From: an uncultured Clostridia bacterium
GTDB taxonomy: Bacteria; Bacillota; Clostridia; Oscillospirales; Acutalibacteraceae
Assembly: GCA_946182865.1 (NCBI GenBank)
Contig: CAMHAV010000001.1
Coordinates: 1 to 64,000, forward strand
DNA length: 64,000 bases
Direction of reading: 5' to 3'
Of this stretch, positions 52,236 to 57,503 are shown piece after piece; the stretch's first letter is position 1; every line of letters begins with the position of its first letter. The notes under the pieces are model-generated. The model was not told the DNA's origin. It saw only the letters and a list, made by a program, of their open reading frames with translations, and searched no databases. Made by a program: the position numbers and the translations under genes.

Positions 52236-53065
52236 AGTTGCCCGTCTCCTTTGTCAATTGGTTGATAAGAAAAATGCTTGTCCCGCAGCATCAGCACGCC
52301 GAAAATCACGTAGACCGAATGCACGGCGCAAAGCAGCGCCATATTCCCGACGGAAGCATCGCTCCGCCCCGCCGACGAAACAAACAAAGCCCAGAATCCG
52401 GTGAGAAAATCCTCGGCAAAGTGAATGCACACGCACACCCAGAGATTTTCCGTGCGCAGATACACCGCGCAAAGATAAAAGCCCGCCAGGAAGGTAAACA
52501 CCACCTGTCCCACGGTAAACACCGGGGCATACGGTTTTTCAATGAGATTGAGCAGGTGACGCAGCCCGAACAGCACGGAACAAGCCGTCACCGACCACCA
52601 GAGAAATCCGCGTCTGTCCCGCCACGCGTAAAGCAGCCGGCTGAGTATCAGTCCGCGAAACAAAAATTCCTCGCTCAGCGCAATGGCAAGACTGTAGAGC
52701 GTGAACCCTGTCACCGTGCCAACTGACGGCAGGGTCACTGGCGTTTGATAGCTGAAAAGAAACGCCATCGCCGCACAGATCACCCCCAGCAAGCCGAAAC
52801 CGAACAGCCCCCGGACAAATCCCTTGCCGCCGACCGTAAACGGTAGTCTCCCATACACGGCAAGGCAGATTCCGATAACCGCCAGCAAACTCAGTGTATA
52901 TTTGACAGTGCCGCCCCAAACCGTCGGCATTCGTTCTACCCACGGCGTTATGATGCCCCATGTTACGGGCATGACAAGACCAAAGACCGCCAAGGAAAAC
53001 AGCAGCGGATGTTTTTCACTGCATTTTCTGATGGTTTCTGTCATTTCGCCGTCACATCCTTCCAC
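52232..53065 (-). CDS. CPBP family intramembrane metalloprotease
   Basis: ALSEEFLFRGLILSRLLYAW; FGLRHLLN; VCIHFAEDF. Confidence 0.88.
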   Translation of the reverse strand: MEGCDGEMTETIRKCSEKHPLLFSLAVFGLVMPVTWGIITPWVERMPTVWGGTVKYTLSLLAVIGICLAVYGRLPFTVGGKGFVRGLFGFGLLGVICAAMAFLFSYQTPVTLPSVGTVTGFTLYSLAIALSEEFLFRGLILSRLLYAWRDRRGFLWWSVTACSVLFGLRHLLNLIEKPYAPVFTVGQVVFTFLAGFYLCAVYLRTENLWVCVCIHFAEDFLTGFWALFVSSAGRSDASVGNMALLCAVHSVYVIFGVLMLRDKHFSYQPIDKGDGQL

Positions 53066-53589
53066 TCGGCATTCTCATCCGCCCATTCGAGCCATGCGCG
53101 ATAGGTCTTGATGCCAAAGGTCACAGTGGCCAGATAATAGCGGTGGGCAGGGTCGTCGTGCAGGCAGGAGCGCAGCACTTTTTCATACACCAGCAGTTCC
53201 TCCAGTCCGCTTTGTATTTTGGCGCGGAATGCCCGGATATGCAGCGCCGCCTGTTCCTCGCCGCCCTCTTTGCCAAAGAACAGCTTGAGCAGCGTCTCAC
53301 TGCGCAGCTCGTCCCGTTCGGCAGGCTGCATGAGCCACCGGGACAGAACCGCCCGTCCCTCGTCGGTGATGGTGTAGAGAATCTTGCTCCGTCCGCCGTC
53401 GGTAATCTCGCGACTGACGGCATATCCGCATCTGACCAGTTCGCTCAGGGTAGGATAAATGCTGCCGTAGCTCGCGCTCCAGAAAAATTGCAGCACCGTG
53501 TCAATGCGTTTTTTGATTTCATACCCCGTCGCCTCGCCGTCGCTGAGAAATCCGAGAATCACGCAGTCCATCTTCTTCTCCGTTGCCAT
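53041..53589 (-). CDS. PadR-family transcriptional regulator
   Basis: DCVILGFLSDGEATGYEIKKRIDTVLQFFWSASYGSIYPTLSELVRCGYA. Confidence 0.93.
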   Translation of the reverse strand: MATEKKMDCVILGFLSDGEATGYEIKKRIDTVLQFFWSASYGSIYPTLSELVRCGYAVSREITDGGRSKILYTITDEGRAVLSRWLMQPAERDELRSETLLKLFFGKEGGEEQAALHIRAFRAKIQSGLEELLVYEKVLRSCLHDDPAHRYYLATVTFGIKTYRAWLEWADENAEWKDVTAK

Positions 53590-53609
53590 TTTTGATTTCC
53601 TCCGTCTTT

Positions 53610-53650
53610 ATCTATCAGTCTGATATATATTATATATCAGACTGATAGAT
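53610..53650. promoter_or_regulatory. PadR-gene promoter inside a perfect 20-bp inverted repeat
   Basis: ATCTATCAGTCTGATATATA-t-TATATATCAGACTGATAGAT; on minus, TTGACA-17-TATAAT runs through it. Confidence 0.9.
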
Positions 53651-53677
53651 TTGTCAAGCGTCTTTTCAAAGAAAAAG

Positions 53678-53712
53678 CCGTTCCGGAAAAGCAACGCGCC
53701 TTTCCGGAACGG
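53678..53712 (-). terminator. Intrinsic terminator downstream of spoVM
   Basis: CCGTTCCGGAAA...TTTCCGGAACGG followed by CTTTTTC on minus. Confidence 0.75.
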
Positions 53713-53754: not shown

Positions 53755-53835
53755 TCAGGCCTCTTTCTTGATGCCAAACATCAGTCTGAGAATACCTCCG
53801 AGCATTTTGGGACTTCTGACGACGACGATCTTCAT
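53755..53835 (-). CDS. spoVM: Stage V sporulation protein SpoVM, 26 aa
   Basis: Not in ORF track. MKIVVVRSPKMLGGILRLMFGIKKEA* with GGAGG RBS. Same length and PKxLGGIxRxMxG pattern as B. subtilis SpoVM; downstream of thiN as in the conserved cluster. Confidence 0.88.
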   Translation of the reverse strand: MKIVVVRSPKMLGGILRLMFGIKKEA

Positions 53836-53937
53836 AAGTATTACCTCCGTATGTGATGGATTCAGCGTCTTTATCGCTGTCACTATCATCATACGCCGCC
53901 GCCGCGAATGTGTGACAAATTTTTCTCCGCCGCGTCG

Positions 53938-54561
53938 TTACCCCATCCGGCACTCCACCACCAGCGCCATGCCCTCATGAATTGTCATGGCAAACGCCGC
54001 CCGGTCGGTCACGCGGTTGCTGACCCCCATCGGGAAATACGAATGCAGCCGCAGCCGCTCCGCCGGGTACTGCACACCGCTCATGCTCACAACCACCGAC
54101 CCGCCGCCATAGGGAAACACCGAAAAATACCCCTCGCCGAGCAGCGGCACCACCTGCTGCCCCGCGCCGAACACGCGGACTGTGGTGTTTTCATCCGCCA
54201 GGAGGCCGCTCGCGCCGTGGGTTCTGAGATATTCCAGTGCGGCGATGTTGGCCATCGTATGATCGAGCCGTCCTCCCAGACCGCCCAATATCACAAAATA
54301 ATCCATCCCTTTGAGCAGTCCGTGCTTGACCGCCAGCATGGCGTCGGTGTCGTCTTTTTCGCAAGGGTACACCTCTGTGGCATTGTCGGGAATATATCCG
54401 AGGGAATCAAAATCACCGATCAGCTCGTCACACGTCACGCCCAGCGGCGCCAGGTGCCTCAGGCCGCTGTCAGCGGCAATGATGTAGTCTCCCTCGTCGA
54501 TGTACTGTTTCATTTTATCATAGTCGGAAATGTCTCCGCCTGCGATAATCACACACTTCAT
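53938..54561 (-). CDS. thiN: Thiamine diphosphokinase
   Basis: IIAADSGLRHLAPLGVTCDELIGDFDSLG; ILGGLGGRLDHTMANIAAL. Confidence 0.93.
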   Translation of the reverse strand: MKCVIIAGGDISDYDKMKQYIDEGDYIIAADSGLRHLAPLGVTCDELIGDFDSLGYIPDNATEVYPCEKDDTDAMLAVKHGLLKGMDYFVILGGLGGRLDHTMANIAALEYLRTHGASGLLADENTTVRVFGAGQQVVPLLGEGYFSVFPYGGGSVVVSMSGVQYPAERLRLHSYFPMGVSNRVTDRAAFAMTIHEGMALVVECRMG

Positions 54562-54603: not shown

Positions 54604-55548
54604 TTATCGGGCCGGCTTTTTCTTTTCCCATTCCTTGATATCCTTGACTTCATTGTAAAGCGCCACATAGCTGTCGTGCCGCGACGGCGCAATATTTCCC
54701 TGCCGCACGGCCTCCAAGACAGCGCAGCCCTTTTCACAGGTGTGGGAGCAGCCCGTAAAACGGCACTGTCCCTCATATTCCGCAAATTCGCGGAACGTGT
54801 CGGGCAAATCCTCCTTGTAGACCACCTCGGCAAATTCGCCGTCAAACGACGAAAATCCCGGCGTGTCCGCAATCTTGCCGCCGAAATCCAGCGGGAACAG
54901 CTCTGTCTCACGGGTGGTATGCCTGCCGCGTCCCAGCTTTTTGCTGGTTTCCCCCGTCTCGCGGTGAAGCGAGGAACAGAGCGCGTTGAGCAGCGTGGAT
55001 TTCCCCACGCCCGTATTGCCCGCGAACGCGCTGATTTTATCTTTCATCACGGCGCGGATCTCATCGAGGAATGCCCTGTCGCCGCCGTAATCCGCCGCTA
55101 TCACGGTGAATCCTGCTTTGCGGTAGAGTTCCCCGAAGCCGTCTTCCTCCGCCTTGTCCAGCTTGGTCAGTACGATGACGGGTTCGATCCCCTTGTACTC
55201 CGCGAGAGAAATCAGGCGATCTACCGTCAGGGGATTGGGGGACGGGTCGCACATCGAAACCACGATGAACAGATTATCCAGATTGGCCAGCGGAGGACGC
55301 AGCAGAAAGTTGCGCCGCTCCAGCACCCGGTCGAGACTGGCGAGTCCGTCCGGATGTACCGTGATTTCGCAGCGGTCGCCCGCCAAAGGCGTCACCCGCT
55401 CCGAGCGACCGCCTTTGCCGCGCAGCACGCCGCGTCCGCGGCATTCCACCGTCACCCCGTCGGCTTCCACATAATAGAAGCCGCCGATTCCTTTGAGTAT
55501 TCTGCCCTGGAGCTGCTGTGACGTTTTCTCTTTCATCGGCTGTGTCAC
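54604..55548 (-). CDS. rsgA: Ribosome small subunit-dependent GTPase A
   Basis: Circularly permuted GTPase: LTKLDKAE, AGNTGVGKSTLLNAL, DTPGFSSF; C-terminal Cys/His zinc motif. Confidence 0.95.
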   Translation of the reverse strand: MTQPMKEKTSQQLQGRILKGIGGFYYVEADGVTVECRGRGVLRGKGGRSERVTPLAGDRCEITVHPDGLASLDRVLERRNFLLRPPLANLDNLFIVVSMCDPSPNPLTVDRLISLAEYKGIEPVIVLTKLDKAEEDGFGELYRKAGFTVIAADYGGDRAFLDEIRAVMKDKISAFAGNTGVGKSTLLNALCSSLHRETGETSKKLGRGRHTTRETELFPLDFGGKIADTPGFSSFDGEFAEVVYKEDLPDTFREFAEYEGQCRFTGCSHTCEKGCAVLEAVRQGNIAPSRHDSYVALYNEVKDIKEWEKKKPAR

Positions 55549-57503
55549 CCGACCGTATTGTCATCGGCGGCGTCGGTCAGCCATGAAATGTCATGTTCCT
55601 TGGTCACTTTGTATTTGCCGTTTTTGAAATTCACCGAGTAGTCCTTGAAATTCTTTCCGTTGAGGGTGACATTGACCACCTGTGTGCCGGAACCGGTCAG
55701 CTTGATGGAATAGCTGTTCTGCGAGGCAAGGGAAACTTTTGCCGCCTTGATGGAAACGCCGTCGAGGAATACCTCAATGGTCACATCCTGCGTGCTGTTT
55801 TCGGGAAGTTCAATTTCCATCGACACGGTGGATGCGGGCGCTTTGCCGTTGCTGATGGTGAATTTGACGACGGTATCCTTGGTCAGCTTGGTGCCGAGAG
55901 AGGGTTCCTGCGAAATAATGGTGCCTTCCGGCTTGTTGCTGTCAACGCTCGTCGCGTCCGCCACCGTAATGCCCATGGATGTGAGCTGGCTCTTGGCTGT
56001 CACATACGGCATATTCACAAAGTTGGACATCACCAGCTCTTCGCTCTTGGAACCGAGGCTGTAGTAAACCTCGATCACATCGCCCACCTGCACTTCCTCA
56101 CGCGGCTGGGGATTGGTATTGCAGACAATATCCACCGGAATCTGGTCATCATACACCGGCATTTCGATATAGGCAAGTCCCTGCTGCGTGAGAAGCTGGG
56201 TGTACTGCACAAAGGTCATATTCTGGTAATCCGGCACCATCAGGCGCTCGGGGCCCTGGCTGACATAGAGCACCACGCGGGAATTGGCATAAACTCTCTT
56301 GCCCGGCTTGGGAGTCTGCTCCATAATGACGCCCTGCGAGATCTCGCTGCTGAATTTCTCCACCGGCACGAATTCATAGCTGTATTTGTCGCTCTGAATC
56401 ACATCGTTATACACCTGACCGACAAAGTTCGGCAGCTCCGACTGCTCACTGTTGTTCTTTTTGAGAATGCCGCTCGCGTCAATAAAGATGACCACAAACA
56501 CAATCGCCACCAGTACAAACGCCGTCGCGATACCGGTCAGCACGGGAATGACGGGGCTTTTGTACTCCTCCTCGGCGGCCGCCTCTGTCTTTTTGACGGT
56601 TTCCACCGCTTTGCGGTAACGGCTGTTGTCCTCGACAACATACCGATAGTCAAATTTAATGCCGGGGTTGAGCTTGAAATTCTCGATATCTTCCAGCATC
56701 TCCGCCGCGCTCTGGTATCGTCTGGCGGGGTCTTTCTGCATGGCCTGCATGGTGATTTCTTCCAGACCCACCGGAATGTTGGGATTGATCTGCCTCGGCA
56801 TTTTGGGGTCGGCCTGTAACTGCATGACCGCCACGGACACCGCGCTGTTGGCTTCAAAGGGCAGCTTGCCCGTCAGCATTTCGTAAAGCATCACGCCCAC
56901 GGAATACAGGTCGGCGCGCGCGTCGGTGACGGCGCCTCTCGCCTGTTCGGGGGCAATGTAATGCACCGAGCCGATGGCCTTGTCGGTGATCGTGCTGGTC
57001 TGGCTGTTGGCAAGACGCGCAATGCCGAAATCGGTCACTTTAATGCGGCCGTTAGGCAGCAGCATGATATTCTGCGGTTTGATGTCGCGGTGAACGATGC
57101 CCTTGGAATGGGCATGCATGAGCGCGCGCAGAATCTGCGTCGTGAAATGCACCGCTTCCTTGACGCGGACGACGCGCTGCTGCTCGATGTAATCCTTGAG
57201 CGAAATGCCGTCAATGTATTCCATGACGATGTATTGCAGCGTGGGGCTGTTGCACACGTCGAAGATTTTGACAATGTTCGGGTGATTGAGCAGCGCAATG
57301 GCGCGGGACTCATTGCGGAACCGACGGCAGAATTCCTCGTTGTCCAGATATTCTTCCCGCAGAATCTTAACCGCCACAATCGCGCCGGTGTCAAAATCCT
57401 TTGCCTTATAGACCACGGCCATGCCGCCGTTGCCGACTTCTTCAAGAATTTCGTATCTTCCGTCCAGGACTTTTCCGATATATTTATCCATTCTTGTTTT
57501 CAC
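55545..57503 (-). CDS. prkC: PASTA-domain Ser/Thr protein kinase
   Basis: Kinase motifs GIVHRDIKPQNIMLLPNGRIKVTDFGIA, TM helix, PASTA repeats. Confidence 0.95.
   Translation of the reverse strand: MKTRMDKYIGKVLDGRYEILEEVGNGGMAVVYKAKDFDTGAIVAVKILREEYLDNEEFCRRFRNESRAIALLNHPNIVKIFDVCNSPTLQYIVMEYIDGISLKDYIEQQRVVRVKEAVHFTTQILRALMHAHSKGIVHRDIKPQNIMLLPNGRIKVTDFGIARLANSQTSTITDKAIGSVHYIAPEQARGAVTDARADLYSVGVMLYEMLTGKLPFEANSAVSVAVMQLQADPKMPRQINPNIPVGLEEITMQAMQKDPARRYQSAAEMLEDIENFKLNPGIKFDYRYVVEDNSRYRKAVETVKKTEAAAEEEYKSPVIPVLTGIATAFVLVAIVFVVIFIDASGILKKNNSEQSELPNFVGQVYNDVIQSDKYSYEFVPVEKFSSEISQGVIMEQTPKPGKRVYANSRVVLYVSQGPERLMVPDYQNMTFVQYTQLLTQQGLAYIEMPVYDDQIPVDIVCNTNPQPREEVQVGDVIEVYYSLGSKSEELVMSNFVNMPYVTAKSQLTSMGITVADATSVDSNKPEGTIISQEPSLGTKLTKDTVVKFTISNGKAPASTVSMEIELPENSTQDVTIEVFLDGVSIKAAKVSLASQNSYSIKLTGSGTQVVNVTLNGKNFKDYSVNFKNGKYKVTKEHDISWLTDAADDNTVG

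Follow-up and report, generated by a model that had tools for sequence, protein, structure and literature searches.

The window, a stretch of 64,000 nucleotides from the genome of an uncultured Clostridia bacterium, contains on its minus strand a 26-codon gene that, judged from its sequence, is a genuine spoVM: it fits a curated family model, is conserved in the genus and the order, occupies a syntenic position, and resides in a genome that also encodes the partners of SpoVM. A true spoVM orthologue acting as in B. subtilis sporulation is the best explanation as a whole, and we consider it almost certain. The find, made in an earlier sequence-only reading, is correct but ordinary, and represents one more orthologue. 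The gene and its surrounding features are as follows.

53755..53835, minus strand: spoVM, 26 codons plus stop (NF033436 match, genus conservation, third-position variation)
53843..53848, minus strand: Shine-Dalgarno region GGAGGT of spoVM, read from the sequence
53884..53914, minus strand: conserved candidate promoter-like element CACA-N15-CGTATGATGATA upstream of spoVM
53678..53712, minus strand: intrinsic terminator hairpin behind spoVM (terminator scan and folding z = -5.4)
53938..54561, minus strand: thiN, thiamine pyrophosphokinase, upstream of spoVM (TIGR01378, 120.6 bits, cut-off 76.4)
54604..55548, minus strand: rsgA (TIGR00157, 192 bits, cut-off 100)
55545..57503, minus strand: prkC, PASTA kinase (NF033483, 524.6 bits, cut-off 450)

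The gene product, MKIVVVRSPKMLGGILRLMFGIKKEA, whose reading frame closes with a TGA codon at positions 53755-53757, scores 49.8 bits against the NCBIfam model NF033436 (SpoVM_broad; cut-off 31; E = 2.4e-13) and 16.2 bits against the narrower model NF011327 (cut-off 55); the SpoVM match is unique within the 3.3 Mb genome. The likeness to B. subtilis SpoVM seen in the sequence-only reading holds, as 11 of the 26 residues are identical in a gap-free comparison, a number that none of 200000 shuffles reaches. SpoVM matches were obtained in 34 of the 40 searched genomes, including all 18 of the genus (the window's genome counted), and among the control genomes only in that of B. subtilis (1 of 14). 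Most of the order carries spoVM according to this genome search; in five of its genomes (G018, G025, G035, G036, G039) spoIVA is present and spoVM was undetected. When the 15 distinct spoVM sequences of the genus are compared, 37 columns vary, 8, 6 and 23 of them at the first, second and third codon position, respectively; the p-value of 3e-4 for this distribution under equal chance is approximate, since the sequences are related. Among named records, those nearest to the window come from rumen and gut MAGs that bear the label uncultured Ruminococcus or Clostridia.

Of the Bacillus-like gene neighbourhood that had been read from the sequence, rsmB, rlmN, prpC, prkC, rsgA and thiN were borne out by a family scan; the prpC-prkC-rsgA-thiN neighbourhood is common to this locus and that of B. 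subtilis spoVM. Throughout the genus, spoVM follows downstream of rsgA-thiN, in the same orientation, at every locus where both are visible, whereas the C. difficile gene is located near rpmB and is cotranscribed with CD25622 (PMC5607322). In several relatives, the distance between spoVM and spoIVA is only about 2 to 4 kb (G024:C1:818486 and 820926; G023:C60; G007:C12; G030:C37; and, with a weak spoVM match, G037:C12), which is not the case in the window's genome. On the other side of the terminator, a perfect TTGACA-17-TATAAT promoter at window positions 53608-53660 overlaps a long palindrome (ctatcagtctgatatata...tatatatcagactgatag) and precedes a PadR-type regulator gene (53041-53589); the palindrome probably serves as an autoregulatory operator.

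An open reading frame of only 26 codons, in a window that holds hundreds of ORFs of similar length, might be suspected to be a chance frame that merely resembles SpoVM. Given the E-value of the family match, the conservation across the order, the constant position downstream of thiN among genus members, and the variation concentrated at third codon positions, the probability of such a coincidence is negligible, and we reject this reading in favor of a true spoVM gene.

acGGAGGtaatactt directly precedes the ATG start codon of spoVM, and the segment cGGAGGtaatactt at the Shine-Dalgarno region hardly varies across most genus members. The terminator, which like the ribosome site had been noticed in the sequence-only reading, is a strong hairpin with a stem of 16 pairs, a loop of 3 bases and a T-rich tail. 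ORF calling from the first ATG yields a 45-codon frame (53755-53892) instead of spoVM; since a ribosome site and a genus-wide alignment are found only at the 26-codon start, the latter is to be preferred. The upstream in-frame ATG could be one way in which a gene caller mis-handles spoVM. Galperin and colleagues noted in 2012 that SpoVM, a very short protein, seldom gets recognised during annotation, and a table in their study gives 70 for missed spoVM ORFs (PMC3533761); the remark that this gene is easily missed has been in print since then. The one weakness of the earlier reading lies in its description of the gene as unlisted: NCBI possesses an automated model for SpoVM, and spoVM has long been known to escape annotation.

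The promoter-like element upstream of spoVM has the form CACN-N15-C(G/A)TAT.ATG in the genus, with a spacing that is constant when the alignment is judged by eye. It can be read either as a SigE/SigK-like site of the CATA type or as a sigma-A-like TATGAT, and a promoter scan also scores it as a weak sigma-70-type site. Its strict pattern has one match in the whole genome; no clear site matching it was found upstream of spoIVA, and the region upstream of sigK contains only a loose CACA-N16-CATA match.

SpoVM of this bacterium has in common with the B. subtilis peptide its length of 26 residues, Lys2, Pro9-Lys10, Leu12-Gly-Gly-Ile15, Arg17, Met19 and Gly21. It differs in Val6, which replaces Ile6, in a hydrophobic IVVV segment in place of FYTI, and in its C-terminus, IKKEA. 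In B. subtilis, Pro9 introduces the kink of the SpoVM helix and is required if the peptide is to recognise positive curvature; Lys2, Ile6 and Ile15 are important in the cortex checkpoint as well as in the binding of SpoIVA (PMC5607322). Pro9 is invariant in the 32 compared sequences. The B. subtilis SpoIVA residue tied to position 6 of SpoVM is G486; the SpoIVA protein of the window's genome ends with GLICIIL and, counted from the C-terminus, has a Gly at this place, whereas that of C. difficile has an Asn (PMC5607322).

Part of the genus (L010-L017, L019, L020, L022) possesses a SpoVM with a second proline, Pro14 (LAPILR), a type that is also scattered elsewhere in the order (L029, L090, L092, L105) and that is paired with Lys or Arg at position 21 in all 10 Pro14 sequences. 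Genus members with this type often have thiN and spoVM separated by one or several genes, such as one for a zinc-ribbon membrane protein and one for an acetyltransferase-like protein, names that come from ORF reading only. Pro14 together with Lys/Arg21 is a mild variation; it may affect the helix and the curvature that the helix prefers, or the fit to SpoIVA, although we rate this as rather unlikely.

Besides spoVM, the genome has the other core genes of sporulation. The profile search detected SpoIVA (746.9 bits, cut-off 459.9), SpoIIP (168 bits, cut-off 123) and a SASP (105 bits, cut-off 22), and SigE, SigG and SigK each score above the cut-off of at least one curated model. Each of the 18 genus genomes has a full-length spoIVA; in the window's genome this gene directly adjoins a Spo0A-type gene and a SipL-type gene that encodes two SipL domains. 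The Spo0A-type protein (188 bits, cut-off 200), a full-length SpoIIE-like protein (291 bits, cut-off 491; scored with the proper SpoIIE model and not with TIGR02764, a PdaB-type model) and a SigF-like factor (209 bits, cut-off 321) fall below their curated cut-offs; the initiation arm is therefore divergent. The findings that the sequence-only reading had named as refuting, absence of spoIVA and other engulfment genes or a lack of conservation of the ORF in relatives, were looked for and did not turn up. From this gene content we infer that the organism would sporulate, in keeping with the earlier suggestion of a spore former or a descendant of one.

The sub-threshold scores of the Spo0A, SpoIIE and SigF-like proteins, together with the decay of the Spo0A receiver pocket described below, could be taken to mean that spoVM is a relic, kept by chance after the lineage had lost the ability to sporulate. 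Such a history is very unlikely in view of the intact spoVM in every genus genome, with its excess of third-position changes, the equally widespread full-length spoIVA, and the SASP, SpoIIP, SigE, SigG and SigK proteins; a true spoVM orthologue remains the preferred reading.

The Spo0A-type gene beside spoIVA (G000:C32:10130-10969; L066, L142) encodes a protein whose DNA-binding motif, SRVERAIRHAIEVAW, is still nearly identical, but in whose receiver the acidic pocket is gone, MSH-type residues having replaced ADDN of B. subtilis; this loss is seen in every genus member examined (L122, L124, L127, L130, L132, L133, L136-L141). Genus genomes contain up to three Spo0A_C proteins, and the one encoded on contig C34 of the window's genome combines an intact-looking EDD pocket with a weaker match to the DNA-binding domain. 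The spoIVA-adjacent Spo0A may be phosphorylation-independent, or roles may be split among the Spo0A_C proteins. Several ECF-type sigma factors of the window's own genome (L054, L057, L063) have long C-terminal extensions in which, as read from the sequence, a threonine-rich linker leads into leucine-rich, BspA-like repeats. Our literature search found nothing on SpoVM in metagenome assemblies or on rumen Spo0A receivers.

The role of this SpoVM is likely the known one, that of a curvature-sensing amphipathic peptide docking SpoIVA on the forespore. By analogy with B. subtilis, from which expression timing, curvature sensing and SpoIVA binding are carried over, the mother cell would make the peptide during sporulation, and it would insert into the outer forespore membrane, a positively curved surface, in the form of an amphipathic helix kinked at Pro9. 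Membrane-bound SpoVM would then recruit SpoIVA, whose polymerisation would form the base layer of the coat, joined here by SipL as in other clostridia. The partner set is clostridial, unlike that of B. subtilis, and the combination of a clostridial SpoVM with SpoIVA and SipL is shared with C. difficile. SpoVM of C. difficile binds SpoIVA yet is largely dispensable (PMC5607322); an essential role should therefore not be assumed here, and SpoVM may be less essential in clostridia.

The spoVM find changes no concept. It does show that the core of endospore assembly is present in an uncultured gut Firmicute lineage, and the correct calling of spoVM helps to judge spore-forming capacity from metagenome assemblies.
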